A stretch of 64,000 nt of DNA from the NCBI GenBank assembly GCA_023664345.1, contig JAMPFQ010000007.1, positions 54,315 through 118,314 on the forward strand, given 5' to 3'. The notes under the pieces were generated by a model. That model did not search any database and was not told where the DNA came from. It was given only the letters and a program-made list of their open reading frames with translations. This DNA is from Lachnospiraceae bacterium. GTDB taxonomy: Bacteria; Bacillota; Clostridia; Lachnospirales; Lachnospiraceae. Position 1 is the first letter of the stretch; every line of letters starts with the position of its first letter. Below, piece after piece: positions 45,732 to 63,291 of this stretch. The translations under genes were made by a program, and so were the position numbers.

Positions 45732-45771
45732 GCATTTACATGCTGACAATATCATTTTTTATCGGTGTCAT

Positions 45772-45927: not shown

Positions 45928-47574
45928 ATGCGAAAAAGTGTGAAACTGATGGTTGGGACCCGTGTGGCGGCAGCCTTTCTGTCCATGGTGCTGTTCAGTG
46001 TGCTGACCACCAAGAACATCATCCTCATGGATCGTTCCGAGGAGAACAACATTGCAGTCAACGCCCTGTTGTCGCGGGCCCAGCAGGCGGAGGCCGCCCA
46101 CTATAAATGGGCCAGCAATCTCAGCAATGCCCTGTATGCGGGAACAGAATTTACCGGCAGTACGGATCCGACCGGATGCGTGCTGGGACAATGGATCTAT
46201 GGCGAGGCCGGAACGGATGATGAGGCCATCCTTGATCTCCGTTCCCGGCTGCAGCCTCTTCATGAAGAACTTCATCAATCCGCCGTTCATGTACTGGAAC
46301 TGCTGAAGACCGATCCGGAACAGGCTCAGAAATATTATCAGGAAACGATCCAGGGCAACCTGACGGTCCTGGTGGGCCTGCTGGATGAAGTGATCGCCCG
46401 GGGCACAGTCCTGAATGATGCCAGTGCGGAGAATATGCAGTCTATTGTCTCTACCATGCACATAGTCACCGCTGTAGGCCTGAGTCTGGCGCTGGTCTGC
46501 CTGATCAGTCTGGTATTTTATGTCATGAAGCGCATCGTGAGACCGATTCTCATGATCACCAATAAGACCAGACCCCTGCAGGAAGGCCGCCTGAAAATAG
46601 ACCTGGATTACCGCCACAATGACGAGATCGGCGATCTGTCCGGAACTTTACATCAGTCTCTGGAACAGATTAATCGGTATGTGGAGGATATCAACCACAT
46701 TCTGCACGAACTTTCCACAGGCAATTTCAATGTGACGACTTCCGTGCCTTTTATCGGAGATTTCCGTTCCATTGAAGAATCCATTGACAGCTTTACCACC
46801 TCACTCTCCTCCGCTATGTCCAATATCAGCAAAGTGGAACATGAGGTGTTCGATCATGCGAAGAATCTCTCCAACAGTTCCCAGATGCTGGCACAGGGGG
46901 CAACAGAACAGGCCAGCGCGGTGGAGGAACTATCCGCTACCCTGAACGAACTGTCCAGAAGTGCAAAACAGAATATCGATATGGCTGCCCATGCCCAGGA
47001 TAATGCCAAGCTTACCGGAGACCAGGTATCGCTCAGCAGTGACCAGATGAAACTGCTGGTAGAGGCCATGGAGGATATCAGTACCACGTCCACCCAGATC
47101 GAGAAGATCATTTCCACCATTGAGAATATTTCTTTCCAGACCAATATCCTGGCGCTGAACGCCGCGGTTGAGGCAAGCCGGGCCGGGGAATCCGGCAGAG
47201 GCTTCGCAGTGGTAGCCGAGGAAGTGCGCAGCCTTGCGGGACAGTCGGAACAGGCGGCCAAAGCCACCAAGAATCTGATCGAGAATTCCGTGAAAGCTGC
47301 AGAGCGGGGTAATCAGATCGTAACGGAAGTCTCCTCCACATTGCAGAAGACCATAGAATTGGTTCTCCAGTCCAACGACACCATCGGCGAGATCACCGGC
47401 GCGGTACGGACAGAAGCGACCGCCATCTCACAGGTAGCGGAAGGCCTTGAACAGATTGCTGCGGTAGTGCAGACCAATTCCGCCAACAGCGAAGAATCCG
47501 CCACCGTCAGCGTGGAACTGTTCGAGCAGGTTAATCTTTTGCAGGAACAGACCAGCGGATTCCGGCTGAAATAA
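45928..47574 (+). CDS. Methyl-accepting chemotaxis protein with CZB-like outer domain
   Basis: The start at 45928 follows AAGGAGAG and gives 548 residues. TM1 is near 8-28. The outer domain (about 35-190) has AEAAHYKWASNL, CVLGQWIYG and LQPLHEELHQSA, matching the His/Cys/His/His spacing of chemoreceptor zinc-binding (CZB) domains. TM2 is near 190-212, then HAMP and a signalling domain with tip [23 protein letters not shown] domains in known receptors are mostly cytoplasmic; here it is between the membrane segments. A role in zinc or oxidant sensing is inferred. Confidence 0.92.
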   Translation: MRKSVKLMVGTRVAAAFLSMVLFSVLTTKNIILMDRSEENNIAVNALLSRAQQAEAAHYKWASNLSNALYAGTEFTGSTDPTGCVLGQWIYGEAGTDDEAILDLRSRLQPLHEELHQSAVHVLELLKTDPEQAQKYYQETIQGNLTVLVGLLDEVIARGTVLNDASAENMQSIVSTMHIVTAVGLSLALVCLISLVFYVMKRIVRPILMITNKTRPLQEGRLKIDLDYRHNDEIGDLSGTLHQSLEQINRYVEDINHILHELSTGNFNVTTSVPFIGDFRSIEESIDSFTTSLSSAMSNISKVEHEVFDHAKNLSNSSQMLAQGATEQASAVEELSATLNELSRSAKQNIDMAAHAQDNAKLTGDQVSLSSDQMKLLVEAMEDISTTSTQIEKIISTIENISFQTNILALNAAVEASRAGESGRGFAVVAEEVRSLAGQSEQAAKATKNLIENSVKAAERGNQIVTEVSSTLQKTIELVLQSNDTIGEITGAVRTEATAISQVAEGLEQIAAVVQTNSANSEESATVSVELFEQVNLLQEQTSGFRLK

Positions 47575-47597
47575 TTTCTGAATTGTTCACAGTCATA

Positions 47598-47636
47598 CAC
47601 CCGCCAGTCTGTTGCTGATTGGCGGGTGCATATTTT
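47598..47636. terminator. Terminator between convergent genes
   Basis: CACCCGCCA/TGGCGGGTG stem with a 13-base loop, followed by CATATTTTATC on the plus strand. It separates the chemoreceptor from the ferredoxin-type gene. Confidence 0.75.
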
Positions 47637-47637
47637 A

Positions 47638-48483
47638 TCAATTTTTCTCTCTTCTTTTTCCCTGTGTGAAGTGCAGACACTTTGTGGGGCATGTCCCCAC
47701 ACACTTTCCACATCTTATGCACTCCGGGGAACCGGATATCTCATTGACCGAAAGGGCCACCGGGCACGCCTTCTCACAGGCGCCGCAGGAAATACAGTCT
47801 TCTTTCTCCCAATGAATCTGCACCAGGCTGAAACGGTTGAACAAACCATAGATTGCGCCCAATGGACACAGATACTGGCAGAAAGGCCTGTATATCTTCA
47901 CTGAAAGAATGATGATCAAAATCAGAATCCCCAATTTCCAGAGAAACAATCCCCCGGCCTGACCGCGGAGCATTTCATTTCCGGCAAGAAGCGGTATGGC
48001 GCCGAACAACGTCCCCGAAGGACACAGGTATTTACAGAATGCCGGAATCTTGGCAAATCCGCCAAATAAAAACATGGAACCAACACATACCAGAAAAACC
48101 AGAACCACATATTTCCCATATTTCAGGACAGAATGCAGGGGCAGCCTTTTTCTCTTACGAAAAACAGGAATCTTATGCAAAAGATCCTGCACCAGCCCAA
48201 ACGGACACAGCCAGCCACAGACAAAACGCCCCAGGATGCTCCCAAACAGGAAGAAAAATCCCAGCGCAGCAAAAGGAATCTGGAAGCCCTGCCTGTTCAG
48301 CAAAGCCTGAAGCGCCCCGATGGGACAGGAAGCCACCGCTCCGGGGCAGGAATAACAGTTCAGTCCCGGAACACAGGCATATTTCATCTTTCCCTGATAG
48401 ATCTTCCCATTTAAAAAACCGTAAACATATCCGTTTGTGAGAACGGTAAAAAGAAGCTGTACGGTCAACCGTGATCTCTTCAT
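47638..48483 (-). CDS. NapH-like membrane 4Fe-4S protein
   Basis: From the ATG at 48483 the product is 281 residues. It has four or five membrane segments, the NapH-type CGWLCPFGLVQD, FCKYLCPSGTL and FCQYLCPLGAI motifs, and two classical C-terminal clusters, CISCGACEKACPVAL and CIRCGKCVGTCPTKC. It probably passes electrons across or at the membrane. It begins four bases after the stop of the CXXC micro-protein and is third in the TlpA / CXXC / NapH-like trio. Confidence 0.9.
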   Translation of the reverse strand: MKRSRLTVQLLFTVLTNGYVYGFLNGKIYQGKMKYACVPGLNCYSCPGAVASCPIGALQALLNRQGFQIPFAALGFFFLFGSILGRFVCGWLCPFGLVQDLLHKIPVFRKRKRLPLHSVLKYGKYVVLVFLVCVGSMFLFGGFAKIPAFCKYLCPSGTLFGAIPLLAGNEMLRGQAGGLFLWKLGILILIIILSVKIYRPFCQYLCPLGAIYGLFNRFSLVQIHWEKEDCISCGACEKACPVALSVNEISGSPECIRCGKCVGTCPTKCLHFTQGKRREKN

Positions 48484-48487
48484 AACT

Positions 48488-48613
48488 TCATCCAATCCCA
48501 ATACATTCCATGCAGATCATCACTGCCTTTTTCCATATGACGGCGAACTGATCTCCAGCGGCGCCAAGGCCAAGAAATATAATCCCGGCAAACAGTCCCC
48601 ATAACCATCCCAT
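48488..48613 (-). CDS. CD1871A-family CXXC micro-protein
   Basis: A 41-residue reading frame between TlpA and the NapH-like gene. It reads MGWLWGLFAGIIFLGLG, then WKKAVMICMECIGIG: one membrane segment and a CMEC (CXXC) motif near the end. This pattern and position match the CD1871A-family CXXC proteins that sit between TlpA-like and ferredoxin-type genes in Clostridia. It begins four bases after the TlpA stop; the ribosome site is weak (GGCGG), so coupling to TlpA translation is likely. Confidence 0.8.
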   Translation of the reverse strand: MGWLWGLFAGIIFLGLGAAGDQFAVIWKKAVMICMECIGIG

Positions 48614-48617
48614 CCGC

Positions 48618-49202
48618 CTATTCTTCCAAAAGCGCATTCACTTTTTCCTCCCATGCAGCTTTTTCCATAGAACCGATCACTGTGTCCAGTATCACGCCGT
48701 TCTCATCAATAAAAAATGTGGTCGGAACAGCGGACACATCTGTAAGGAGCGCGTAATATACGGATTCGTTCAAAAGCAGATGCGTGTAATCCGCACCTGT
48801 GTGCTGAATCAGGCCTGACGCATAGTCCATGACCCTCTGATCCGCGCCCTCTTGCACATCGCTGATAATGCCAATGATCTGGAAGTCCTCTGCATCATAT
48901 TCCCCGGCCAGTTCGCCAAGTCCGGGCATTTCCCTCAGACAGGGATCACAGTAAGTGGCCCACACATTGACCATGGTAAGCCTTGATCCTGAAAAAACAG
49001 AGGAAGAGACCGTATTTCCCTCCATATCCTGTGCTTCAAAGGTGATCGTGGCAGCAGGTTCCTCACTTTCTGAGGATGGCGGCTCTACCGCCGCCTGGGC
49101 GGAACTGCTCTCCTGTTTTCTTTCATCCACTGAACTTCCACAGCCGCAAAACAGAAAAAACACCGCAGCAGATAACAGACATATTTTATACATTTTACGC
49201 AT
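48618..49202 (-). CDS. TlpA-like thioredoxin-fold lipoprotein
   Basis: A 194-residue exported protein with lipobox LFCGC at residues 17-21, an acidic spacer and a thioredoxin fold with active site WATYCDPCLREMPGL and cis-Pro segment SAVPTTFFIDENG. It should reduce or isomerise disulfides outside the membrane, fed by the two downstream membrane proteins. AGGAGGG precedes the ATG. It is the last host gene before the ICE junction. Confidence 0.92.
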   Translation of the reverse strand: MRKMYKICLLSAAVFFLFCGCGSSVDERKQESSSAQAAVEPPSSESEEPAATITFEAQDMEGNTVSSSVFSGSRLTMVNVWATYCDPCLREMPGLGELAGEYDAEDFQIIGIISDVQEGADQRVMDYASGLIQHTGADYTHLLLNESVYYALLTDVSAVPTTFFIDENGVILDTVIGSMEKAAWEEKVNALLEE

Positions 49203-49223
49203 AAATGACCCTCCTGAATCTGA

Positions 49224-49256
49224 AAAATGCCATAACTTTAAAAAGTTACGGCATTT
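49224..49256 (-). terminator. tRNA-side terminator
   Basis: AAATGCCGTAACTTT pairs with AAAGTTATGGCATTT on the minus strand, with T run. It directly follows the tRNA-Arg 3' end and would end the original tRNA transcript. Confidence 0.7.
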
Positions 49257-49258
49257 CA

Positions 49259-49301
49259 GCGTTGGTGAGGTGACTCGAACACCCGATCTTCCGCTTAGGA
49301 G
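49259..49301 (-). tRNA. 3' half of tRNA-Arg(CCU), left attachment site of the ICE
   Basis: On the minus strand the sequence runs from anticodon loop CTCCTAA through anticodon stem GCGGA, variable AGATC, T arm (GGGTG-TTCGAGT-CACCT) and acceptor strand to the 3' end. The 5' half is missing: bases to the right of 49301 cannot form the anticodon stem (TTTTC instead of TCCGC) and no D arm follows. Integration at a tRNA 3' half leaves one copy of the core at each end. The intact gene should be re-formed at the far right end of the element. Confidence 0.8.
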
Positions 49302-49792
49302 GAAAAATCACGCTGTACCCTGCGGTCTCTTTACACATCTTTTCACGTCTTTTCTTGTCAAAATTACCCATAGAGGACTATGATACTTATGCCTTTATGT
49401 TACATATTGCACAATTTCATGTAACTAAGTCAACTTTCGTTCCATTAGCAGAAAATTAGCAGAAGCCACTTTTAGGCACGCCGATTAGCAAAAAATTAGC
49501 AGGCACAAGGGTCTGTTTTTACATCAAGCCGTACTTTATTTTCTATAATACCGCCTATATTTGCCATGTATTTTATCCGGTCTGTGGATGCCTTAAATCA
49601 GTTTCCACGGATTGGACAGGTTTATTCTACCACAATACGGGCTTATTTGGCAATCAAATACCCTGTGGGATCGCTACAAGTGAAACTGCGGGGTATTTTG
49701 AGCCCAGGATTAGCGGTAAGTATGTGGAACTTAAAAAAATGGACTCCCACTGCCTAAAACAAGGCTGCTGCTGACAATTTATGGAGGATTTT
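49302..49792. other. ICE left-end non-coding segment
   Basis: No gene is supported here. Visible are an inverted repeat GTTACAT/ATGTAAC (49399-49405 with 49419-49425) and the phased ATTAGCA repeats listed separately. An open frame at 49566-49757 has no ribosome site or family look. Integrase is not encoded at this end. Confidence 0.6.
49444..49501 (+). repeat. Four phased ATTAGCA repeats near the attachment site
   Basis: ATTAGCA starts at 49444, 49455, 49484 and 49495: two pairs, 11 bases within each pair and 40 between pairs, all in one orientation. This fits arm-type integrase or excisionase binding sites, which flank the core site of tyrosine-recombinase elements. Confidence 0.7.
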
Positions 49793-50953
49793 ATGTCAGA
49801 ATACCAGTTAGAAATAAAACAGATTGTGGACTATCCACGCTGCCGGGTCTACCGGCAGTTTATCCGGAACCTGATGGATGACCGGGGCATTCGCACAAGC
49901 GGGGGCTCCGGCCTTTTTTATTACACGGTGCTTTGCAGCTACGCAAACTTCCGCACTTCCTACCGCCGCATAGACGGGATAAGCTATACCGTCTACCCCG
50001 GCGAGTGGATCTGCACGTTAAAGGAACTGTCCGGCTGGTTCCGCACCCGTTTCCAGCGCCAGGCAGTCTCCATCCTGGACGAGCTTCAGGAACGCCACCT
50101 TATCTCCTACCTTTCCCTCGGGCGCGGCAAGGTGATCAAATACAAGATCCGCGACTGGAAAACACACAACACCGTGCTGGACTATAACTGCCCCTGCCAG
50201 AAAGACACAGGCTTTTTCTTCATGCCCGTTGTCACCGCCACGGAATTAGTCAGCGCAGGCCGTTGTTCCGAAATGGACATTATACTGGATCTGTGGCTGT
50301 CCGCCATCTATAACGACAGCCAGGTACAGGGTTCTGAGCTCGGCCCTGTCGTCTACCTGCGCAACGGCACCGGCTCGCCTTTGGTGACGTACAGCGAGGC
50401 GGCTGACCGCTGGGGGATCTCCAAAACTACTGCAGGGCGTGTGCTGAAGAAGCTTGCCGGGCTTGATTACATCTCCTTAATGTCATTCCCCGGCAAGATC
50501 GGCAGCGTGATCTACCTGCGCGGCTACCTTTCCACCATGTTCCAGATTTCGGATGTCCTGATAGACAAGGACGAGGTTGCCATGAGCCTGAATATCAATG
50601 TTACGCTGCCGGATGAAGCGGAAGCGGAGACAGACACACCGGCTGCGGGGCATGGGATCTGCGTTTCACCGGAACTGTCCAGCGTTTCAAAACCGCACAT
50701 GGAAGCCATCATCAGCAAAATGGCGCAGGTGCTGGAAATACAAGGGATTTCCTGCTTCCGCTGCCCCAAATCCACATATAAGTTATATCCTTTATCTGAC
50801 GGCTGCAGGGAAAGTTATATTATGCACCTGCAGGGGGCGCCTGTCCGGTTCGGGATGGCTGTGCTCTGTGGGGATGGCAGGCCGGTTTACACTTTTGAGC
50901 TTTCCCTCTCCGCTATAGGGAAAGATGCTGACGAAGGGAGGGAACGGGCATGA
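49793..50953 (+). CDS. ICE protein with two winged-helix-like domains
   Basis: The start at 49793 follows GGAGG and gives 386 residues. Two DNA-binding-type segments are visible: one near residues 65-125 (CTLKELSGWFRTRFQRQAVS, ISYLSLGRGKVIKYKI) and one near 200-245 (TYSEAADRWGISKTTAGRVL). A C-terminal domain of about 110 residues has no known motif. The layout resembles element-borne initiator or regulator proteins. It overlaps the next gene by four bases. GC content is that of the ICE backbone. Role unproven. Confidence 0.65.
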   Translation: MSEYQLEIKQIVDYPRCRVYRQFIRNLMDDRGIRTSGGSGLFYYTVLCSYANFRTSYRRIDGISYTVYPGEWICTLKELSGWFRTRFQRQAVSILDELQERHLISYLSLGRGKVIKYKIRDWKTHNTVLDYNCPCQKDTGFFFMPVVTATELVSAGRCSEMDIILDLWLSAIYNDSQVQGSELGPVVYLRNGTGSPLVTYSEAADRWGISKTTAGRVLKKLAGLDYISLMSFPGKIGSVIYLRGYLSTMFQISDVLIDKDEVAMSLNINVTLPDEAEAETDTPAAGHGICVSPELSSVSKPHMEAIISKMAQVLEIQGISCFRCPKSTYKLYPLSDGCRESYIMHLQGAPVRFGMAVLCGDGRPVYTFELSLSAIGKDADEGRERA

Positions 50954-51519
50954 AAAAGAACCAGGACGAAGTAAGCATAACTGACAACCCGCTGTACCAC
51001 GACACATGGAAGCTGCTGAAAAAGTACAGGGATGTGGTATGGAGCCTTGAGTTGTCCGTCCAGCAGGTGCGCAGCAGGTTTGAGATCGAGTACGGGAGCT
51101 CCATTGAGGATTTCCTGGATTCCGTCTATGTGGCAGGGATAGACCTGTCTGACCGCAGCATTGAACACCATGCCAAGTGCATTGAGCGCAGCCACCGGAT
51201 GCTGAAGCTGCTGGACAGCTCCATTGACCTGCTCCGCAATAAGCACAAGAACGGCGAAAGTTACTACTGGCTGCTGTATTACGCATTCCTCTCCCCACAG
51301 CAGCTTAGGAATGTGGAGGAGATTATAGAGAAACTGCGCCCCCATATCCGGGACATCAGCTTCCGCACATATTACCGGAAACGGCGGGAAGCAATAGATG
51401 CGCTCAGCTCCATCCTCTGGGGGTATACCTCCAAAGAAAGCATTGCTATCCTGGAACAGTTTTTCCCGGATGAAGACGCCAAGCCGAAGCTGCAGGATGA
51501 TAAACCGGATACCCCTTAG
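50950..51519 (+). CDS. ICE hypothetical protein, ArpU/sigma-like helical
   Basis: A 189-residue, almost wholly helical protein (ELSVQQVRSRFEIEYGSSIE; LLYYAFLSPQQLRNVEEIIE; FRTYYRKRREAIDALSSILW). The C-terminal part resembles the ArpU/RinA-type late regulators, with a helix-turn-helix-like SPQQLRNVEEI...RTYYRKRREAI arrangement. Its start overlaps the stop of the preceding gene (ATGA) and GGGAGG lies upstream. Function unknown; probably part of the conserved ICE backbone. Confidence 0.6.
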   Translation: MKKNQDEVSITDNPLYHDTWKLLKKYRDVVWSLELSVQQVRSRFEIEYGSSIEDFLDSVYVAGIDLSDRSIEHHAKCIERSHRMLKLLDSSIDLLRNKHKNGESYYWLLYYAFLSPQQLRNVEEIIEKLRPHIRDISFRTYYRKRREAIDALSSILWGYTSKESIAILEQFFPDEDAKPKLQDDKPDTP

Positions 51520-51647
51520 TTTGAGCCACCATTGACAGCATGATAAAAAAGGGTAAACAAATGTTTCTGTTCCTGATAAAATTCTGCAATATGATGAGCC
51601 AGACAGGTACTTATAAGTAGTCCTACCCCATCTCTTTGATGACATCA

Positions 51648-51692
51648 GCAAAGGGCATTTATCCTTAAATACCATGATACTTGCCCCTTTGC
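51648..51692 (+). terminator. Terminator-like hairpin before the cargo operon
   Basis: GCAAAGGG pairs with CCCTTTGC around a long loop, followed by ACTTTTAT. It marks the end of the ICE backbone unit. Nothing else is visible in 51520-51779. Confidence 0.4.
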
Positions 51693-51779
51693 ACTTTTAT
51701 ATAGAACATTTCAGATAAAATAATTATCAAAAACTACATAAGCACTACATAAAACTTAGCTGTTAAGGTCAAAATCTTA

Positions 51780-51823
51780 TTGACGAAAGACAAAAAGTAA
51801 ATTATACTAAAAAGGACTTTTTG
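51780..51823 (+). promoter_or_regulatory. Promoter and inverted-repeat operator of the cargo operon
   Basis: TTGACG (51780-51785), 17 bases, TATACT (51803-51808). An 8-bp perfect inverted repeat CAAAAAGT/ACTTTTTG (51791-51798 with 51816-51823) brackets the -10 and the expected start. The leader to the first start codon is about 138 bases and AT-rich. Confidence 0.65.
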
Positions 51824-51952
51824 TGGCAAGGGATTGGACAAACTCTCGTTTAAAATAAAAAAATGACTTACTTTTAGTAGTATTTCAAAATGCCAAGCAA
51901 TTCTAAAAATGTTACACATAAAAATAAAGGAAAGGGTTAAGGAGCTCATTTC

Positions 51953-54037
51953 ATGCAACGGTCAGGTGAAAAAACGAAAGAGACAGCGGAGAACAGGATA
52001 TTCTCGAATGATTTCCATCAATATGTGATGGAGGCAGATACATGGGAGGATTTTAAAGCTGGCAAAATAAGAAGCCTGCCGATTAATTGCGCCGAGGAAA
52101 CTCTTAAGATATGGGAAGATTTACTTGTATTAGATAAGCAGATATGCAGCAGGTTGGATGACGAATATAAAAGTTTAATTGACGATTATGCTAAAACATA
52201 TTTATTTCTCCTGGAACAGTTGGTAATAATAATATCGGAGACGGGGCCAGGGCAAGAACGAGGGCATTTTGTGCAGCAGTTGGAATTGCTGCTCCGTTGG
52301 AAACTTTGTAAAGTCAACTTGGAAAATCTGCTTTTAATACCGAGATGCCATCCAATGGAAATAGTGGTACGGGCTTTGGCTAATGAACTGTCAGATTTGG
52401 CTGACAAGGACGGAAGCAATCTGGTAAAGGCCATTTTGTTGGCAGAGCAGAAGCGTTATGCAGAATATATTATTGTCCTTTCAGACCAGGTTTTCCTGAG
52501 AAAAAATAGAGAAGAAACATTTATAACCCAGGAAGGTCAATATTCGATAGCGGTTCCTCTTCAAGATGCAGGGAGTTTTACTGAGATATCTTCCATTCGG
52601 TTTATTGAAAAGATCAATCATTCTAAAAGGACAGGCGCGTCTACAAGTCCAATAAAGCTTGCATGCATGGGGCGGGTCACAGAGCCGACGCTGATTACAG
52701 AATACTTCAAAAACGACCTTCAACTTTTTGAATTTAAACAGGTAACGGCAAAAGGTAGTCGGCTGATGTTTCAGATAGAGGAAGAATGCATCAAAAAATT
52801 CCAATGGAGTAATAAAACTCTTTTTAACCTTCTTTCTCTGCCGGATTTGGAATTCTTGTTTAATGAGTTTGACATAGTCTTTTTTATGGATGAAAGTTGT
52901 TTTTATAGTGCAGGGCAGGCAGGGAAGACACTGGAGGAGAGGAATATTGCTGCCCAGTTGAAATGGCTGCATACAATGTCTGCACGGGAAAAGCAGACTG
53001 AAAAAAAACTGTTGTATTACAGAAAAGAATTTGAAACGATTGGCAGATGGCTGAGCGTACTGGACAAAGATGCCACTGCGCACTTACAGTTTAACGAGCA
53101 TTTGTTTTATACAATACAGAATGCTATGCGGTCTGATTGTGATGTTTATCTATATATCAGTCATGGTAGGCAGATAGGTGAAATGGATCTCTATAACCGA
53201 AATATTTGCAATGACGAAAATTATGGCGGAAAAGAGCTTTCGGTTTATAAAATGTCTCATGGGCAGGTTGACTTGGATGCATATATGAAAAAGCTTTTTA
53301 CGAATAATGATGGGGATGACAGGCAATGTAAGGTCTGGATTGATCTCTGGAAGCTTGTTAAAAGCATCAATAACGATTATTACCGCCAATTTCTGCAAAA
53401 AGGAAGTACTGAGCCTGTTAATGAATTGGATGGGATTCGTCTATTAAAAGAATCCTATCTTGTGCTTTGCTATCCGAAGACAGAAAAAGCCCAAAAAGTT
53501 TTATGCGGCTTGAAACTTGCAGAGAAGCCTGACAATATGCTTCCTGCCGTTTATGATCAATTGGCTCGAAATGCTAAGGATTTTTTAAAAGAACTGGTAA
53601 AAGAGGGGCTGCAGGAGCCGAAATACAACTGTGTTTCTCAGTATCTTCGAAATCTGCTGGCAAACGGTGTAATTTCAAGAGCAAAGAATGTGGTAGATAT
53701 TTTGTTCGGTTTTTTGCTGAAAAGGGAATATTTCTATAGAAACTTTGAATGGGTGGATATGGAAAGCGTGGAAGCTATTTATGAAGAAATGACTGATATA
53801 ATGGAAGAAGGTCTTTTTGAAACACGAAGAATCGTACTCTCTGTAATCCGTAATCTTAACGAAGTATGGCTCAGGGACTTGGGGCGAGGAGAGTCTTTTC
53901 TGATGTATGATTTTCGGAATAAATATTGTGCAGGACTAAGCGAGGAAATTTTTTTGCAATTATTGCAAGAGATACACAAGGCATGCGAAACATTGGGATT
54001 TCAGGAGAGCAGGGTCTATAACTATAGCAACCTGTAA
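51953..54037 (+). CDS. Unknown 694-residue protein, first gene of candidate three-gene system
   Basis: AAGGAG lies eight bases before the ATG. I recognise no known domain. The protein is largely helical with a beta-containing middle: an N-terminal helical region (1-130), RCHPMEIVVRALANELSDLA (131-150), then a mixed section with SIRFIEKINHS, IKLACMGRV and FEFKQVTAKG, an acidic strand FDIVFFMDESCFYS (306-319), a helical stretch, CDVYLYISHGRQIGEMD near 400, and a helical C-terminal half. There is no signal peptide, membrane segment or P-loop. It is 32 bases before the ATPase gene and shares its low GC. It could be the sensor, adaptor or effector of the set. Confidence 0.85.
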   Translation: MQRSGEKTKETAENRIFSNDFHQYVMEADTWEDFKAGKIRSLPINCAEETLKIWEDLLVLDKQICSRLDDEYKSLIDDYAKTYLFLLEQLVIIISETGPGQERGHFVQQLELLLRWKLCKVNLENLLLIPRCHPMEIVVRALANELSDLADKDGSNLVKAILLAEQKRYAEYIIVLSDQVFLRKNREETFITQEGQYSIAVPLQDAGSFTEISSIRFIEKINHSKRTGASTSPIKLACMGRVTEPTLITEYFKNDLQLFEFKQVTAKGSRLMFQIEEECIKKFQWSNKTLFNLLSLPDLEFLFNEFDIVFFMDESCFYSAGQAGKTLEERNIAAQLKWLHTMSAREKQTEKKLLYYRKEFETIGRWLSVLDKDATAHLQFNEHLFYTIQNAMRSDCDVYLYISHGRQIGEMDLYNRNICNDENYGGKELSVYKMSHGQVDLDAYMKKLFTNNDGDDRQCKVWIDLWKLVKSINNDYYRQFLQKGSTEPVNELDGIRLLKESYLVLCYPKTEKAQKVLCGLKLAEKPDNMLPAVYDQLARNAKDFLKELVKEGLQEPKYNCVSQYLRNLLANGVISRAKNVVDILFGFLLKREYFYRNFEWVDMESVEAIYEEMTDIMEEGLFETRRIVLSVIRNLNEVWLRDLGRGESFLMYDFRNKYCAGLSEEIFLQLLQEIHKACETLGFQESRVYNYSNL

Positions 54038-54069
54038 AGAGAATGGTTCATGCAAAGGAGGAATTCAAA

Positions 54070-55116
54070 ATGGGGAAGATAACATTTCATGTTGTTCATT
54101 CAGTAAAGGGAGGATGCGGGAAGACTGCATTCTCTCTTTTTAAGGCACTGGGATTGGCAAAGAAAGCTATTGATAACGGAGAAGACCATGCAAGAGTGCT
54201 GTTGCTTGATGCCGATCTGTTGGGGTCAGGATTAAAAACATTACTCTATGTCAAAGATGAGAAGACTTTTGAAACAAATAAGGATACACGGCTGGAAGCG
54301 TATAAGGTGGCGCATGGAGGTCCAGGGTCAGGTGTGTTTAATTACCTGATTTTCCAAGAAAAATATCAGAAATGTACTTTGAATCAGTTTTTGATGGATG
54401 ACGATTGTACTTTTTTGGATATTTATGTGGAAGGGGCGGCAGTTCACAAAGCTGATGGTGAAGAAATTACTCCAGACACAGAAATTAACGGATTCATTGA
54501 TTTTGTGTTCTGTGCACCGGAAGGCAAAGACAAGAACTATTTCCGGTATCAGAATGGCAACACGCCTTCAATTGATATGGGCAGATATCGGTTAAAAATA
54601 AGGCAACTATTGACGGAAATTCACCGTTTGGGAGAGACTGGTAAAAAAGGAAAAGGGGCTGACAATCAAAAAATAGGATACGAGCATGTTGTGATTGACA
54701 TGCCGCCTGGTTATGATCAATATTCTAGCGTATTGCTGGAGGTGCTGCGTGAATTTGTAAAGAAAGAAAAAGTCAAAGACGAAATATACTATTATGCATT
54801 AACCACTGGAGACAGAAGCCATTTAGATGCCATGATGGAAAATGTGTTGGAGATGTTAGCAGAAGACTCACTGTATGACCCTTATGAGAAAGTTTTTGCG
54901 GTATTTAATGAAACACAGGAAGCAGAATACATAGCTACTGAGCCACAAGATGTAATAGAAGATCTTAAACGCAGAGCAGATGAATCGTTGGGAATGAAAA
55001 ATAAGGTAGAAGGGATCGTCTGTAAGTTTCAGAAAGAATATAACGCTTTCTGCAGAATGGATTCACGTCCGACCTTTGGATACAGCCTGAATGAAATGTC
55101 AGGAGGTTTGAAATGA
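54070..55116 (+). CDS. ParA/MinD-like (SIMIBI) P-loop ATPase of the candidate system
   Basis: Started at the ATG after AAAGGAGG, the product has 348 residues. The N-terminus has the deviant Walker A KGGCGKTAFS (residues 13-22), then VLLLDADLLGSGLK (A' strand, Asp47/Asp49), and a Walker B-like HVVIDMPPGYDQ near 210. These place it with SIMIBI ATPases of the ParA/MinD/ArsA type. A larger-than-usual insert (about 65-200) separates the motifs. No HTH is fused and no parB-like gene is adjacent, which argues against ordinary plasmid partition. It overlaps the HD gene by four bases (ATGA). Confidence 0.88.
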   Translation: MGKITFHVVHSVKGGCGKTAFSLFKALGLAKKAIDNGEDHARVLLLDADLLGSGLKTLLYVKDEKTFETNKDTRLEAYKVAHGGPGSGVFNYLIFQEKYQKCTLNQFLMDDDCTFLDIYVEGAAVHKADGEEITPDTEINGFIDFVFCAPEGKDKNYFRYQNGNTPSIDMGRYRLKIRQLLTEIHRLGETGKKGKGADNQKIGYEHVVIDMPPGYDQYSSVLLEVLREFVKKEKVKDEIYYYALTTGDRSHLDAMMENVLEMLAEDSLYDPYEKVFAVFNETQEAEYIATEPQDVIEDLKRRADESLGMKNKVEGIVCKFQKEYNAFCRMDSRPTFGYSLNEMSGGLK

Positions 55117-57329
55117 AGGAAGTGAAACATATTTGGAATCCTATATACATGGAGAAGTTTCTGGAAGACTTTGACCCTGTTAAGCATAGATATATGCGAT
55201 ATGTAAATCAAAACAAATGGGATTCAGATGAAGGGAAAAAGCTATACAGAGCATTGGCTGAAACGTGTCGCTGTGAAGAAAGGTGGACACTTGATGAAAT
55301 AGAGGATGTCTACCAGACCGTGGAAAAGGTATATGGCGTAAAAGAAAATTATTTCTGTAAGGTAATTAAGCTTACCACGGAGAAATTTTTGGGAAGTTAT
55401 GTAGGGATAGAAGGAATCGGGCAATTATTTAAGGCATCCTATTTTTACTTTGAGTGGATGATGCATTTGGAATACAACCAAAATCAGCACGATTACACAT
55501 ATTACAGGGATCATTATGTCCATCAGGTTCGAAATATGTTTGAAATGTTCCAGTTCCTGGATACCATGGGATATGAGGAAAAATGCCGCAAGATGTATCA
55601 GGAAATGGATAATTATGTGGCGAAATTTCTGAGAAAAAGCGTAAAAGAAGAAAAGGCAGGAATGAATGGGAAAGAATGCGCCTATGCATTGGACGAAAGC
55701 CTGTACGGTTATCTGTTTTATTCTTCATCAATTATTGCATCCCTGTTGCACGACATTGGGTATCCGATAGCCTACATCGGAAGGACAGTGAAGGAGCTGG
55801 GTAGTTTTTTGCCATTTTCCCATATTTTTGTGCAAGAGGTAGAAACAATCTCTACAATTCATGCTGTTTTACAAGACAGCCTTTTATATAAAGTGATGAG
55901 CCCGGAAGCAGTAGCGGAACGTGTAGAAAAAAAAGACCATGGGGCATTGTCTGCCGTTATTTTGTTGTACAAATATTATGATAACGGAAAAATGGCTCTG
56001 CTCTCACCTATTAAGCGTGCGGCGATAGAGTTGGCAGCACTGATGATTTACAACCATACATTAGGCTATCGCCATCAGGGAAAAGAGAAGAGTATTTATT
56101 ATAAGAACATTTTCTGGGAAAATCCTATGTCTTTTTTGTTCCGGTTATGTGATGACCTGCAGGAATGGGATCGTGTTTATTTTGACGTTAGCCAAAAAAG
56201 TAATTTTTTTGTCTGCGGAAATTGTTTTATGCCTTTAACCAGACAGGCAAACGATACGAAGGCGCAAGATAATGGACAAATTGACAGCCAAACCCCCTAT
56301 ATGCAACAGAAATATTATTCTTGCTGGTGCGGTTCCGGCAAGGGACGGAATACGACTACCTTTGCTTATAGACGGCTGGTTAATATTAACGCGTGTACCG
56401 AACTGGAATGCGAAAAAAATAAAAGGGGCCAAGTAATCCGAATTCGATATAATAAGGGAAGGTTGATGCAAATTGCCGCATATAGCCCTTCTTTTGCTGT
56501 GAAACGGGCTGAAGGAGTTTGGGAAATCAAGCAGATGCTGGATAACCAAAAGGATTTCCCAAAAACATTTGTAGATTTTTGCGTGTCAAACAATCCAATT
56601 CTGCTCAAAGCAGAGATCCTAAAAGAATGGTTATGCAAGAATAAATGTAAGTTTATGGTACTTAAACAGGAATATAATTCCGAACTGTCAGATAAAATGC
56701 CAATGGAACAGCTAGAAATACTTACAAGAATAGTAACAGACATGGGATTGAAGGATCCCAAACTCCAAGACGCATGGAACAGTGATAAGCTTCTGCTACA
56801 GAAAGCGATGAAGAAAGTAAATTCCAATTGGAAGCCAAATATAAAAAAGAGCAGCATCAAGTATATTTGGGAAAAAGCTTATTTTTATTACTGTCTTTCT
56901 CTTTGGGGAAGTCTTTTGCAAAAACTTGACAAAAAGGCTGCATGCCAATGGATATATTCAGAGAAAGGGAATGAGTTGCAGATGCTTTGCGATGCACTTC
57001 AAAAAAACTTTTTAATAACAGACAGGACAGAAAAGTTGCTACTAGAAGATTTTACCAGACAAAAACTCTGTCAATTTGACGAAAATCAGTTTTGGAATAT
57101 TGACACAGAACAAGAAAAGCAGTTGTATTTGGATTCTTTTCTACTGGGCAAATTTAACATTGACATAGTACACAGCTATGTGCAAGAAAAGGAATATGGA
57201 AAAGTTAAAGAAAAAGCATGGTCTTTGAAAGGGCAAGATTTGTTGACAGTTTTAGGATATGATTATTATTCAGATTACTATTTCTACTATACAATATCGG
57301 AAATGATAGATAATATACAAAAAAGTTAG
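55113..57329 (+). CDS. HD-domain protein with zinc-ribbon-like insert, third gene of candidate system
   Basis: 738 residues, start overlapping the ATPase stop (ATGA). An HD-type metal site can be traced: RDHYVHQV (His134/137), LLHDIGYP (His213-Asp214), KDHGALSA (His276), IYNHT (His315) and LCDDLQEWDR (Asp347). Shortly after lies a cysteine pair set, CGNC (368-371) and CWCG (404-407), likely a zinc ribbon. A C-terminal region of about 330 residues is helical with no known motif. HD enzymes cut phosphomonoester or phosphodiester bonds (dNTPs, cyclic nucleotides, RNA). Here the substrate is unknown. Codon use is AT-rich like its partners. Confidence 0.85.
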   Translation: MKEVKHIWNPIYMEKFLEDFDPVKHRYMRYVNQNKWDSDEGKKLYRALAETCRCEERWTLDEIEDVYQTVEKVYGVKENYFCKVIKLTTEKFLGSYVGIEGIGQLFKASYFYFEWMMHLEYNQNQHDYTYYRDHYVHQVRNMFEMFQFLDTMGYEEKCRKMYQEMDNYVAKFLRKSVKEEKAGMNGKECAYALDESLYGYLFYSSSIIASLLHDIGYPIAYIGRTVKELGSFLPFSHIFVQEVETISTIHAVLQDSLLYKVMSPEAVAERVEKKDHGALSAVILLYKYYDNGKMALLSPIKRAAIELAALMIYNHTLGYRHQGKEKSIYYKNIFWENPMSFLFRLCDDLQEWDRVYFDVSQKSNFFVCGNCFMPLTRQANDTKAQDNGQIDSQTPYMQQKYYSCWCGSGKGRNTTTFAYRRLVNINACTELECEKNKRGQVIRIRYNKGRLMQIAAYSPSFAVKRAEGVWEIKQMLDNQKDFPKTFVDFCVSNNPILLKAEILKEWLCKNKCKFMVLKQEYNSELSDKMPMEQLEILTRIVTDMGLKDPKLQDAWNSDKLLLQKAMKKVNSNWKPNIKKSSIKYIWEKAYFYYCLSLWGSLLQKLDKKAACQWIYSEKGNELQMLCDALQKNFLITDRTEKLLLEDFTRQKLCQFDENQFWNIDTEQEKQLYLDSFLLGKFNIDIVHSYVQEKEYGKVKEKAWSLKGQDLLTVLGYDYYSDYYFYYTISEMIDNIQKS

Positions 57330-58129
57330 AAAGGTGCTGACTAAATCATCGTTTCGTTAGCCCCTGGTACATATACACAGATTTGCAACAAAACACGTTG
57401 CTTTACAGCACAAATCTGGCGAAGAAAAACATTTTAATCAGTATTTCCTTAGAATTTGGACAGAGACATAATCAATGGTGTTAGTCTAAAAGTGGGTTAA
57501 AGGTTATATTCTGCAATCTGAATATCCGATATTTATGAGATTGGTAAGCAGACAATTCTAATATCGACCCATTTATGTACTAACACCTAATCGCTTTATA
57601 AAACTAAACTATCATTTTTATATGTATTAATTAATAGCGAATGATTATTTGTTCCTATTATTTTCCATAACATAAGAAGAAAAATACTTACAAATCCATT
57701 CGAAATGCAATTTCAAATTAAGCAAAACTATAAAGTTGACAGGCATAAATGTAGATAACTGCGCAAAGTTTGAGAAAATTCAATGTAATTAAACCATAAA
57801 ACCTAAAAATATAGAAACACTGAGGAAACGATAAAATATCTGGGGAGAACTACAAATGATTGCTTCTTATATACTAAAACAACTACCACAATATCAATCA
57901 TAACAAACAGCACCACTATAAGCATCACCATAAAAATTGCATCCCAATAAAGATTTCCCTCTTTGTATTCTTATCTTCGTCTTTTTCCCCGATTTTTCCA
58001 TTAACTGTATCAAATTTGGCTAGATAGTCAGATATTTGCACGAATACTTGATATTGTAGGTTTTATTTCTGCTGGTTCTGCTTCTTCTCCCCTGCCATCT
58101 ACTGTCTTGCCTTAGAACATTGGTGTAAC
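57330..58129. other. AT-rich, probably decayed segment
   Basis: No intact gene is supported. After the HD gene there is a hairpin CAGATTTG/CAAATCTG (57378-57385 with 57411-57418). On the minus strand 57803-57931 could encode a 42-residue peptide with one membrane segment (MVMLIVVLFVMIDIVVVVLV); it has no good ribosome site and a neighbouring frame reads protein-like for about 30 codons, so a frameshifted remnant is likely. Confidence 0.45.
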
Positions 58130-58270
58130 GTAAACGCTTAATATTTCAACGGCGTGACAATGCTATATCCTTCCTTCATAATGGTAGCTAGGAAATGCGA
58201 GCATCTTGCCCTGTCTCAATTGCGAGAATGAAGTGATGCAAGCATTTTACTATACTATGGAGGATAGATA

Positions 58271-58678
58271 ATGCGAGCAAAAGCTGTTACCGCTGAAGAA
58301 CAGTATCGCCTGATCATGGAATGCAGGGCCAGCGGCATGACGGATTACCAATGGTGCGTGGAGCACAACATCAAGCCGGGTACATTTTATAACTGGGTAA
58401 AGCGCCTCCGGCAAAGTGGGAACGTGGATATCCCGGCTTCTGTCGGAAACAAAGAGCCTACTAAGCAGGACATCGTAGAGATACATTTAAGGCAGCCATC
58501 TGTTGCCGTTCCGGCATCTGGAATGCTATCTGATGCATTCACCGGCACATCTCAGGTTCCCGGCCAGCCCCCGATGCTGGAGCTGTCCATAGCAGACGCA
58601 ACACTCCGGATCCCGCAGGGGACTGACCCAGCCCTCTTGGAGCAGGTGCTTTTTATGCTGAAAGGGATGCCATGTTAG
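58271..58678 (+). CDS. tnpA: IS66 accessory protein TnpA
   Basis: A 135-residue protein with an N-terminal helix-turn-helix (EEQYRLIMECRASGMTDYQW, IKPGTFYNWVKRLRQ), typical of IS66 OrfA. It overlaps the start of tnpB by seven bases. The C-terminus (ADATLRIPQGTDPALLEQVL) is usual for the family. Confidence 0.9.
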   Translation: MRAKAVTAEEQYRLIMECRASGMTDYQWCVEHNIKPGTFYNWVKRLRQSGNVDIPASVGNKEPTKQDIVEIHLRQPSVAVPASGMLSDAFTGTSQVPGQPPMLELSIADATLRIPQGTDPALLEQVLFMLKGMPC

Positions 58679-59037
58679 GCGACATCTCCGCCGCAGATGA
58701 GCTTTACATTGTCTGCGGCTACACCGACATGAGGCGATCCATTGACGGCCTCTGTGCAGTCGTGCAGGACAGGCTGCACATGGATCCACGCAGGAGTGCG
58801 CTGTACCTTTTCTGCGGCAGACGTTGTGACAGGATCAAAGCGCTGTTTTGGGAAGGGGATGGGTTCCTGCTCCTGTATAAGCGCATGGAGGCGCAGGGAC
58901 GGTTCCGCTGGCCAAGGAATTCTGAGGAAGTCCGTGCGCTTACCTGACAGCAGTTCGACTGGCTGATGTCCGGGCTGGAGATCGAGCAGCCCAAAGCTTT
59001 CAGGCTGCCGGGGAATGCGGATGACATATCTTCCTGA
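58672..59037 (+). pseudogene. tnpB: IS66 TnpB with internal TGA stop
   Basis: IS66 OrfB proteins are about 115-120 residues. Here YIVCGYTDMRRSIDGLCAVV and LFCGRRCDRIKALFWEGDGF are intact, but codon 92 is TGA (58945-58947). The same frame continues as QQFDWLMSGLEIEQPKAF to a second TGA at 59035. The missing codon is usually Pro in relatives (from memory). A one-codon nonsense change is the simplest reading. Confidence 0.8.
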
Positions 59038-59152
59038 CGGGAAAAACATCCGCCGGGATATTTGCGTAAAAATGGCGCAAATGCCCAGAAACACTGGTTT
59101 TTACAGAGTTTTTGTGCTATAATGGCAGTATCAAACAGGAGCATAAAAGACC

Positions 59153-60775
59153 ATGGCCAGGAACGCTGCAGACTCCCGCCTGATGGAGTATAAAGATACG
59201 ATCAGCCAACTGAATATGACGATCCGCAGCCAGAATGAGCTGATCACTTCCCTCCGTGAGACGATAGCTTCCAACAATGCGGCAATGGCTGTCATGCAGG
59301 AAAAACTGGATTACCTCACAGATAAGCTTTTCGGCACTTCCAGCGAAAAATCTAAAAATGTGGAGGGGCAGCTGAGCCTGTTTGACGAAGCGGAACAGGA
59401 AGCTTTCTCTGTCGGTGTAACGGACGCAGATGATGTCATTGTTGTCAAAGAGCACATACGCAGGTCCAAGGGCACCCATGAGGAACTCTTTAAGGGAGTC
59501 CCTTCCCGGGACGAGGTGATCCCTCTTTCCGAAGGGCAGAAGGCCTGTCCTGACTGCGGCGCAGAAATGGAAGTGGTCGGGAAAGAGTTCATCCGTAAGG
59601 AATCCCGTTTCACGCCTGCAAAGGGCGAGATCGTCAACATCTACCGAGAGACTGCGAAGTGTCCTGTATGCTCTGAACTGCCGGCCATGGAAAAAGCCGT
59701 CCGGTTCGTCAAAGCAAACGTTCCGGAGGCGCTGATCCCGCACAGTTACGCATCTGCATCTGCCGTTGCCTGGACAATGTACCAGAAATATGCCAACGCA
59801 CTGCCGCTGTACAGGCAGGAGCAGGACTGGAAGCAGATGGGCGTCACCTTGAACAGGGCAACCTTGGCCAACTGGATCATTTACTGCGCCGGGAATTACT
59901 TTTCTCCATTGTATGAATATTTCCACCGGGAGCTCATAAAACGGCAGTTCCTGATGGCGGACGAAACAAGGGTCCAGGTGCTGAAGGAACCGGGGCGGGA
60001 GGCTGAGACAGACTCTTTCATGTGGCTCTTCCGCACCGGGGAAGACGGGCTGCCGCCTATCATCCTTTACAGATATACCGAAACCAGGGCAAAATTCAAT
60101 GCGGAAGCCTTTCTGAAAGGTTTTGCCGGTTATCTGGAGACGGACTGCTACCAGGGTTATAATAATCTGCCGGACATCCGGCGCTGCTGTTGCTGGGCCC
60201 ACCTAAGGAGATACTTCATGGAGGCCGTCCCAAAGGGGAAGGAACTGGACTACAGCAATCCGGCCGCCCAGGGTGTCCAGTACTGCAATAAGCTGTTTGA
60301 GCATGAACGGCATTCTCGGGAGAAAGGGCATACTTTCGAGCAACGGAAAGAATACCGGCTGGAGAAAGAAAGGCCCGTGCTGGATGCATTCTGGGAATGG
60401 GTCTCACAGCAGGCCCCCAAAAAGGGGACCCGCTTTGAGAAAGCGGTGAACTATGCCCAAAACCACAGAGAGGAATTCATGACCTATCTGGAGGACGGAA
60501 GGTGTAGTTTTTCAAACAATCTGAGCGAGAATTCGATCCGTCCGTTTACAGTGGGGCGCAAAAACTGGCTGTTCAGTGATACCCCTAAAGGGGCCGAGGC
60601 CAGCGCAACGGTATATACCATGGTTGAGATGGCCAAGGCGCATGGCCTGAACATCTATAAATATCTGAAATATCTGCTGGAACGTCTACCTGATACAAAG
60701 TTCACCGATGGTGCCTTGGCAAAGCTGGCACCCTGGGATCAGGAAGTCATTGCCAGCTGCTCCGGGGCAATGTAG
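59153..60775 (+). CDS. tnpC: IS66 family transposase TnpC
   Basis: 540 residues, full length. An N-terminal coiled coil and LDYLTDKLFGTSSEKSK are followed by a zinc-finger-type CPDCGAEM...CPVC, and a DDE core with FLMADETRVQVL (first Asp), YLETDCYQGYNN (second Asp) and NNLSENSIRPFTVGRKNWLF (Glu). The C-terminal YLLERLPD region is as in other IS66 transposases. The element may still transpose if TnpB is dispensable or supplied in trans. Confidence 0.95.
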   Translation: MARNAADSRLMEYKDTISQLNMTIRSQNELITSLRETIASNNAAMAVMQEKLDYLTDKLFGTSSEKSKNVEGQLSLFDEAEQEAFSVGVTDADDVIVVKEHIRRSKGTHEELFKGVPSRDEVIPLSEGQKACPDCGAEMEVVGKEFIRKESRFTPAKGEIVNIYRETAKCPVCSELPAMEKAVRFVKANVPEALIPHSYASASAVAWTMYQKYANALPLYRQEQDWKQMGVTLNRATLANWIIYCAGNYFSPLYEYFHRELIKRQFLMADETRVQVLKEPGREAETDSFMWLFRTGEDGLPPIILYRYTETRAKFNAEAFLKGFAGYLETDCYQGYNNLPDIRRCCCWAHLRRYFMEAVPKGKELDYSNPAAQGVQYCNKLFEHERHSREKGHTFEQRKEYRLEKERPVLDAFWEWVSQQAPKKGTRFEKAVNYAQNHREEFMTYLEDGRCSFSNNLSENSIRPFTVGRKNWLFSDTPKGAEASATVYTMVEMAKAHGLNIYKYLKYLLERLPDTKFTDGALAKLAPWDQEVIASCSGAM

Positions 60776-60894
60776 CAAAACTACCTTCATCTGCGAAATA
60801 TGAATAAAGTAAAACGCTCGCAGTTCTTGTTCTATTATATAGGAACTGCGAGATTTTTAATATCCGCTATTTTATTAAGCGGTTACGGTGTAAC

Positions 60895-61500
60895 ATGGCA
60901 AGCGAGTCTGACTGGCTTAAAATCTGTCCATGGAAATCCCTGACCTAATCAAAATCTTTCTGTGTACTTATTTCTTCTTGAAATGTGCCAGATAGTTTCT
61001 AATATGCCGGAGTCGAATCAGTTGTTCTAAATTGCATACCAATTTGGAATATTCCTGCTGTCATTTCCCGGAACATTTCTCATATCATCAATATATTCGG
61101 AACTGCCGTGCTAGTCTCCATAAAGTTCCCTTCACAGCTTTGTCCAAGCGCTTAAACTCCTCAAAAAACATAATTCAAGTTATCCATCCCAGCCCCTATA
61201 ACCAATTCTTAGTATCCTACTGCAATTCTTTATTTGACATCCGTATTTTATAATCCAGGATTGACCTATCCCTGATAATCCGGAACACTTCCTCTACTGT
61301 GTGAACCTTCCTTGTCTCCATATCATCAATCTCTTTATCCAGGCAGGAAATCAAGGTTTCAATCGTTGCCCTACTATCTGCTCTATCTGCAACTGAGCAC
61401 TTTGGATATTTTTTTCTACAGGCTTTGAGGTTGATGTATAAGGCATAGCTTCAACTGTATGTGTCAGAAAAATATTCCTTTTTTCTACCGCTATCTTCCC
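60895..61500 (-). pseudogene. Decayed segment with subtilisin-like (S8) partner remnant
   Basis: Directly after the AAA+ stop, minus-strand codons 61351-61488 read VEKRNIFLTHTVEAMPYTST and SKPVEKNI before ending at TGA. This is like the N-terminus of the S8 peptidases that pair with this AAA+ ATPase type (recall, not a search), but the start codon and the catalytic part are missing. An overlapping frame, 61217-61480, ends with a protein-like stretch ISCLDKEIDDMETRKVHTVE that resembles small antitoxin-like proteins. The rest (60895-61216) shows nothing coding. Confidence 0.4.
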
Positions 61501-62460
61501 CTATGCCTCCTTACACAAATATGCATCCTGCCTCTCATTTAATAACACAATCACTGTCCTGCTTACAATCGGTTCGTCATTCAATATGGAATTCTTTATC
61601 GCATCATCACAGACCCTTGCAATTTCCGCATGGCTTAGCCCTTCTGCGGCTCCCACCACATCTTTTGAAATTGTAAAGCTTTCATCATATGATTTTATTT
61701 TATATTCAAATAAACGCTCAATCTCTGCCGTTGTTGGCAGCATATAGTGTAATACATCGTCAAATCTCCTGAACAATGCCTGGTCCAAGAGTTTCTGGTT
61801 GTTTGTCGCCGCCACAATAATGCTCTCAGATCTGTCCTGCTCTATGAACTGCAGGAATGAATTGAGAATCCTCCGCATTTCCCCTACTTCATTATCCAGG
61901 CCCCGGTCTGCGCCTATGGCGTCAAATTCATCAAAAAGATATACGCCTGCCGTTGACTCTATGCTGTCAAACACCTGCCTTAACTTTGCGCTTGTCTCCC
62001 CCATGAACTTCGTGACAAGCTTATCCATTTGTACCGTGTACAAAGGCAGGGACAGTTCAGATGCTATGATGGAAGCCGTTAAGGTTTTGCCAGTTCCAGG
62101 GTTTCCCTCTATCAATATTTTTCTTCTATTTGTCAGGCCATAGGATGCCAGTTTATACCTGTTCCTATATTCGTTCAAGATCCGCTGGATCTTACCGCTG
62201 ATATCATCTGAAACGATCAATTCTGACAGGTCATGGGAAGGCATTGACAGTGAGAGCATGGGATTGGCAGGGGTAAGCTGCACAATATTAGCCCTCTTGC
62301 TTCCGGCCCTGTCCACCTGCTTTTTCAGGTCACGCGCTAAATTGTCATGCCCAAGCCTGGCTTCATGCGCCGCAATCTGTAAAACCACTGTTTTGAATTT
62401 TTCGTCATTGCAGTCTACGTAAGCCTTTACCAGACTTTTGATCTGCTCTGCAGTAGCCAT
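61501..62460 (-). CDS. AAA+ ATPase, orphan member of an ATPase/S8-peptidase pair
   Basis: The start at 62460 follows GGGAGGTGG and gives 319 residues. The N-terminal helical part is MATAEQIKSLVKAYVDCNDE. The AAA+ core has Walker A EGNPGTGKTLTAS, a pore-loop-like KFMGETSAKLR, Walker B GVYLFDEFDAIG, sensor 1 IIVAATNN and an arginine-finger region LDQALFRRFDDVLHY. This ATPase family usually sits next to a subtilisin-like S8 peptidase in accessory islands. Here only a fragment follows, so the pair is broken. The ATPase itself looks intact. Confidence 0.88.
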   Translation of the reverse strand: MATAEQIKSLVKAYVDCNDEKFKTVVLQIAAHEARLGHDNLARDLKKQVDRAGSKRANIVQLTPANPMLSLSMPSHDLSELIVSDDISGKIQRILNEYRNRYKLASYGLTNRRKILIEGNPGTGKTLTASIIASELSLPLYTVQMDKLVTKFMGETSAKLRQVFDSIESTAGVYLFDEFDAIGADRGLDNEVGEMRRILNSFLQFIEQDRSESIIVAATNNQKLLDQALFRRFDDVLHYMLPTTAEIERLFEYKIKSYDESFTISKDVVGAAEGLSHAEIARVCDDAIKNSILNDEPIVSRTVIVLLNERQDAYLCKEA

Positions 62461-62605
62461 TTCATCCACCTCCCATACTCACGGATTCCATTTATATCAT
62501 ACTATTTTTATGCAGGAGCGTCAACCAAATGCCCCTCTTTTCTCATTTTTTACACACCCAGCTACAGCATTTGCCGCCATCGTATTTTCCCTTTGCCTCC
62601 CCCAT

Positions 62606-62643
62606 GGCACAAAATTGGCACAATATCGCACGAAATTGGCACA
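62606..62643 (+). repeat. Four GGCAC-type repeats at helical spacing
   Basis: GGCACAAAATT, GGCACAATAT, CGCACGAAATT and GGCACAG start at 62606, 62617, 62627 and 62638, spacing 11-10-11 bases. AAATTGGCACA is repeated exactly at 62612 and 62633. Repeats on one face of the helix suggest cooperative binding by one regulator or a transfer-related protein. Confidence 0.65.
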
Positions 62644-62797
62644 GTTCTGCTCTTTCCCTGTAAACAGGGATATGCTAAACTAAATATGCTTCAAACTGCA
62701 CCCAAAACTAAAAACGGCAGAAAAAGGCACCTCTTACACAGGGCGCTTTTTTGCGCATACACAGCAATATGGGCGGCTCTCCCGCCACCCTGCCACA

Positions 62798-62834
62798 GAA
62801 AACCGCACCCGTACCCCGGATGCGGTTTTCTTTT
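62798..62834 (+). terminator. Terminator-like hairpin upstream of transfer genes
   Basis: A perfect 10-bp stem GAAAACCGCA/TGCGGTTTTC followed by TTTT. It would block read-through into the transfer operon or act as an attenuator there. Confidence 0.65.
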
Positions 62835-62871
62835 CCCCAACAACCAAAACATATGAAGGAGGACCCAAAAC

Positions 62872-63270: not shown

Positions 63271-63291
63271 CCGCAGGAGGGGGTGATTTTT

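Follow-up and report, generated by a model that had tools for sequence, protein, structure and literature searches.

A rare three-gene unit with a ParA/MinD-type ATPase and an HD protein in the cargo of an integrative and conjugative element, and its possible role in defence

Introduction

Which function might unite a protein without a recognised domain, a ParA/MinD-type ATPase and an HD protein whose genes lie together in an integrative and conjugative element (ICE)? The question is raised by a Lachnospiraceae bacterium (assembly GCA_023664345.1, contig JAMPFQ010000007.1, positions 54,315 to 118,314 of the forward strand). We refer to these 64,000 nucleotides, the whole stretch analysed, as the window, and number positions from its first letter. 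The three genes, hereafter the trio, span positions 51953 to 57329. A preliminary description, made without database searches, had taken them for an undescribed system probably engaged in conflict or defence. This is supported by our analysis, with one important addition: the trio has five-gene relatives with SspF- and SspG-like genes, a form that had been missed and through which the family touches a named defence system.

Results

Three genes that are kept together

The trio consists of three intact genes on the forward strand: gene 1 (51953..54037; 694 aa), in which no domain can be named, gene 2 (54070..55116; 348 aa), which encodes the ATPase, and gene 3 (55113..57329; 738 aa), which encodes an HD protein that also carries a zinc-ribbon-like motif of four cysteines. 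Genes 1 and 2 are separated by 32 bases, and genes 2 and 3 overlap by 4 bases. A good ribosome-binding sequence, as read from the DNA, precedes each of them on the same strand (AAGGAG at 51939..51944, AAAGGAGG at 54054..54061 and AGGAGG at 55101..55106). The reading frame of gene 2 itself opens at 54043, and we placed its start at 54070, behind AAAGGAGG. These sizes, coordinates and spacings had all been read correctly in the preliminary description, as had the AT-richness of the trio relative to the ICE backbone (38.7% GC, against 48.4% on the left at 40001-51470 and 56.1% on the right at 62601-64000). The statement that the genes lie under one promoter fared less well. It rests on a TTGACG-17-TATACT match on the forward strand (51780..51808, 144 bases 5' of gene 1), of a kind that is no commoner than expected by chance: 19 such -35/-10-like matches were found, against a mean of 21.6 in shuffled sequences.

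The joint presence of the three genes elsewhere had been chosen beforehand as the test of the proposal. The order gene 1, ParA-like ATPase, HD protein was found at all nine loci with a strong match to the HD protein, the window included, and none of their 27 proteins contains an internal stop. The gene trees agree broadly, and the distances of the three genes correlate closely (r 0.954-0.974, Mantel p 0.0001, n = 9 loci), a correlation driven largely by one deep split between two versions of the trio. We conclude that the trio is a conserved, co-inherited three-gene unit.

Its distribution is sporadic, and each version is rare. When 84,980 species genomes were scanned by pattern with one protein, an approach that reaches close relatives only, three relatives of the HD protein were retrieved, with 49% (L001), 36% (L002) and 40% (L003) identity in the best segment. 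All three come from metagenome-assembled genomes, and in all three gene 1 and the ATPase gene lie directly upstream of the HD gene. In genome surveys, strong HD matches occurred in the window's own genome (G000) and in one further genome each time: G223 among 299 genomes of the family, and again among 397 in a later, overlapping draw, G449 among 391 of the class, and G720 among 398 of the phylum. A second copy, diverged from the first, lies on another contig of the own genome (C22), and the genome of L003 (G1064) likewise has a second copy; both are five-gene operons. Weak HD matches occurred in 10 genomes (best E 2.7e-7 to 7.2e-4); six of these loci were read, and those of G415, G618, G963 and G1016 were left unread.

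Families and motifs of the three proteins

Genes 1 and 3 have no meaningful match in Pfam, NCBIfam, PHROGs or PADLOC (best sub-threshold E 0.015 and 0.023), which for gene 1 bears out the earlier observation that it lacks a recognised domain. PADLOC 2.0.0 holds no convincing model for any trio gene: genes 1 and 3 give no match at E up to 1, and the sole match of gene 2 is to PDC-M28B (E 0.0073), over the P-loop. Motif comparison places gene 2 in the ParA/MinD ATPase superfamily by its deviant Walker A, KGGxGK[ST], retained in 9/9 homologues and already noticed in the window copy as KGGCGKT; the match to Pfam PF10609 (E 1.5e-6) scores 28.2 bits, barely above the cut-off of 27.1.

The metal site that had seemed traceable in gene 3 can be written as H137/H213-D214/H276/H315/D347. 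The pattern H-HD-H-H-D, which amounts to a full two-metal-type ligand set, is retained in 15/15 aligned HD homologues, and the presumed catalytic residues are kept in homologues down to about 25% identity. Four cysteines (C368, C371, C404 and C406 in the window) are retained in the HD proteins of all nine strong-match loci. The structure model has an HD-type fold in its core, with YhaM as the best fold match and with phosphodiesterases and dNTPases matching too. Judged by its metal ligands and modelled fold, gene 3 belongs to the HD hydrolase superfamily.

Long trios and five-gene operons

The two versions differ in gene content. Long trios occur at four loci, namely the window and L001-L003. 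At the other five (L009, L010, L021, L038 and L039), a diverged trio is preceded by two more genes, and the layout is an SspF-like ATPase (517-557 aa), an SspG-like protein (~500 aa), a version of gene 1 (968-1042 aa), the ATPase and a shorter HD protein. Gene 1 of the long trios, that of the window included, is a homologue of the third gene of these operons (hhalign probability 94.8, E 5.4e-8, 535 columns), and the ATPases of the two versions are related as well (99.3, E 1.2e-20). The Walker A motif [GA]xxxxGK[ST] occurs in none of the nine gene 1 homologues.

The PADLOC SspF model matches at the three loci scanned (E 9.4e-12 in L009, 7.9e-14 in L010 and 3.1e-20 in L021); the SspG model matches at L021 (E 3.5e-11) and gives no match at L009 and L010. 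When self-matches are excluded, each of the five SspF-like proteins matches its counterpart from some other locus with an E value no worse than 2e-70, and each SspG-like protein with one no worse than 3e-33. The four SspF-like proteins checked carry the Walker A motif G[ED]AGDGK[ST]. An SspF-like gene (tblastn, four SspF-like queries) stands beside 5/5 five-gene trios and 0/4 long trios, and the same holds for an SspG-like gene. Both versions are present in two of the four long-trio genomes, G1064 and the window's own, where the SspG-like gene sits on C22; the other two, for which completeness is not given, have no SspG-like match. The other five-gene carriers are the three genomes from the surveys (G223, G449 and G720).

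DndC exceeded the cut-off in one of seven genomes (G1064). Because none was above it in four of the five five-gene carriers, the five-gene form is perhaps independent of phosphorothioate marks. DUF4007, which we take to be SspB, gave no match in the same number of genomes (0/7), in a search that had no responding positive control.

An HD core shared with proteins beside TIR and DUF4062

The weak-match loci that were read encode a family of HD proteins with an RyR-like C-terminal part, hereafter HD-RyR (L011 9557-11260, L012 8495-10492, L023 10662-12398, L024 9260-10978, L040 6866-8602 and L041 3225-5003). The HD core is common to them and to the trio protein (hhalign probability 98.8, E 6.6e-17), with 16 columns invariant in 15/15 proteins. 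The Pfam RyR model matches the protein of L011 (E 8.8e-16) and not that of L012, the two that were scanned. In five of the six loci the gene adjoins one for a TIR or DUF4062 protein, and such pairs are candidates for nucleotide-signalling conflict systems. The partners are TIR proteins in L012, L023 and L040 and DUF4062 proteins in L011 and L041.

A cargo block in the ICE

In the preliminary description, the trio separated the ICE genes from a cargo zone; in fact it belongs to the cargo. At L043, the stretches matching window positions 51301-51471 and 62602-62712 are only 5 bases apart. In L044 the intergenic stretch is identical, the ICE genes on either side abut at both loci, and the two may be a single element in two genomes. 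At L045 the same flanks are 28 bases apart. Since homology to the window stops at 51471 and restarts at 62602 in these sibling ICE loci, the 11.1 kb in between (51472..62601), with the trio, an IS66 insertion and an IetA-like gene, are cargo, missing almost to the base from all three. The IS66 (Pfam DDE_Tnp_IS66, E 3.5e-89) and an orphan AAA+ gene had both been recognised before. The latter can now be identified as IetA-like (61501-62469, reverse strand; PADLOC IetA, E 6.1e-72); no same-strand open reading frame of at least 80 aa lies between it and IS66, and no IetS partner is visible.

Two ICE genes lie to the left of the trio (49793-50953 and 50950-51519), and to its right is a gene at 62872 that we take to be VirB2-like, for which Pfam gave no match. 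In L044, the same ICE genes lead to a TraG P-loop ATPase and a type IV coupling protein. Homologues of the gene at 50950-51519 were sought in 250 genomes (41 matches in 31 genomes, the own included), and 13 other loci were examined. Behind the homologue are AbiEi/AbiEii in L042, and in L048 AbiLi/AbiLii, an E1-E2 protein of the cyclic oligonucleotide-based anti-phage signalling system (CBASS) and a SAVED-HNH effector. L049-L054 have other genes immediately after it. No transfer genes were found in about 40 kb beyond L042, L048 reaches the contig end, and L047 stops at a contig end at once. In L046 a recombinase, recognised by eye, comes after the homologue, as does a large protein (2988-5435); the latter, of 815 aa, has a weak nSTAND6 match (E 1.1e-4, below the cut-off) and no PADLOC match.

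Beside the five-gene operon of G1064 (L039), at 9552-14957, are genes for a DNA methylase with a fused Mrr nuclease domain and for a second DNA methyltransferase, which look like those of restriction-modification systems. Twelve ICE proteins had no match in the flanks of the other eight trio loci (10 stretches of 10-22 kb).

Discussion

Proposed function and its rivals

That the trio serves defence of one kind or another seems probable to us. Several observations speak for this reading: in other elements, AbiE or else AbiL and CBASS come after the homologue of the ICE gene next to the trio; an IetA-like gene lies in the same cargo block, and the five-gene copy of G1064 has Mrr/methylase genes beside it; the HD core is shared with proteins adjoining TIR or DUF4062; the five-gene relatives carry SspF/SspG-like genes; and the distribution is sporadic. 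A narrower claim, that the trio is an anti-phage or anti-element module of the ICE in which the ATPase controls an HD effector, most likely a nuclease, is one that we believe and doubt in equal measure.

From the anatomy and associations observed above, we infer how switching, substrate and trigger may fit together. Gene 1, which the preliminary description had cast as a putative sensor or scaffold, would provide a platform subunit, standing in the place of the FtsK-like SspH within the SspFGH order but without a Walker A motif. The ParA-type ATPase would be a nucleotide-dependent switch that assembles on this platform, and assembly would license the HD protein to attack nucleic acid of the invader or of the host by hydrolysis, most likely as a nuclease. 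In the five-gene version, a front end of the SspF/SspG kind would serve recognition in addition, a part that the trio on its own may have lost or never had. We suggest, tentatively, that these are five-gene and stripped three-gene forms of a defence complex of a new class, with a ParA/MinD-type ATPase instead of an FtsK-like motor as the energy-driven switch of its HD effector. If this were true, a positional ATPase would stand at the centre of an immune complex, SspF/SspG-type recognition parts would have been re-used with a different effector, and the small three-gene unit would offer a direct test of ATPase control over an HD effector. No description of this combination of genes was found in the literature searched or in the family libraries, and we claim its absence from print no further.

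Defence might also be served in another manner, if the HD protein were a nucleotide hydrolase (a dNTPase, or a phosphodiesterase of cyclic nucleotides or other second messengers) that starves or signals. We think this rather unlikely, since the four cysteines kept in 9/9 proteins suggest contact with nucleic acid and the operon's nearest named relative, SspFGH, damages DNA, although neither point is strong. The proximity of polysaccharide genes weighs against a defensive role. All three other long trios (L001, L002 and L003) have genes for a glycosyltransferase, sugar-transferase, epimerase, CpsB or LytR-CpsA-Psr protein no more than about 8 kb away, in L001 adjacent on both sides, and the five-gene L010 adjoins a polysaccharide biosynthesis gene; these are raw counts, and the four five-gene loci besides L010 were checked by eye. 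The ATPase and the HD enzyme could thus position or regulate the assembly of surface glycans, and the ICE copy would be a by-product of locus exchange. Yet polysaccharide loci are variable regions that gather passengers, no gene of these kinds is recognised by eye among the reading frames beside the window copy, and the five-gene relatives have SspF/SspG-like genes, so that we regard control of surface polysaccharides as distinctly unlikely.

The position of a ParA-type ATPase within an ICE also evokes maintenance of the element, by a partition-like or transfer-control operon. We find this very unlikely: the whole block is missing from sibling ICE loci, the ICE proteins are unmatched around the other trios, and the HD and SspG-like queries have zero matches in 72,556 plasmid records. 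No ParB gene was recognised by eye among the trio neighbours, where no formal search for ParB or a centromere was made, and positions 51300-58300 contain no obvious repeat array. Finally, the genes might be passengers without present function, as could be expected of a rare trio that shares its block with an IS66 insertion and with an IetA-like gene lacking an intact partner next to it. But all three reading frames are unbroken and homologues of low identity retain the presumed catalytic residues, and we consider this explanation highly improbable.

Comparison with known systems

Several known families come close to the trio proteins. Gene 2 has the KGGxGK[ST] motif and the conserved Walker-B-like aspartates of ParA/MinD ATPases (PF10609, PF01656 and PF13614), but differs from them in its marginal Pfam score, in the long insert between motifs in its long version and in the company of an HD enzyme. 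Gene 3 resembles HD metal hydrolases (YhaM, the tRNA-processing HD enzyme, cyclic-nucleotide phosphodiesterases and SAMHD1/dGTPase) in the core of its modelled fold and in its H-HD-H-H-D pattern. It differs from them in matching no Pfam or NCBIfam HD model and in its signature, RDHxxH / HDIGYP / DHG / LCDDLQEW plus the four-cysteine motif. The HD-RyR proteins beside TIR or DUF4062 have the same core, but their RyR-like part takes the place of the four-cysteine motif, and no ParA-like gene was noticed alongside by eye.

The closest comparison is with SspFGH. As reported (PMC8092258), this phosphorothioate-linked restriction system of Vibrio anguillarum FF-93 has been tested in defence and damages DNA without phosphorothioate marks; a Walker A motif is present in SspF, and SspH resembles FtsK at its C-terminus. 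The five-gene relatives open in the same manner, with SspF-like and SspG-like genes and then a large third gene. The third protein differs in lacking a Walker A in 9/9 cases and has no SspH match at E up to 10 (L021, L010) or up to 1 (window, L009), although its remainder may be remotely akin; moreover, the trio family adds a ParA-like ATPase and an HD protein. By its genes, the five-gene operon resembles an SspFG front end to which another back end has been attached, made of gene 1, a ParA-type switch and an HD hydrolase; the trio of the window would correspond to the back end only. By gene content, the window trio falls outside SspFGH, because the two defining genes, SspF and SspG, are absent beside it, while its five-gene relatives share two of the three SspFGH gene families.

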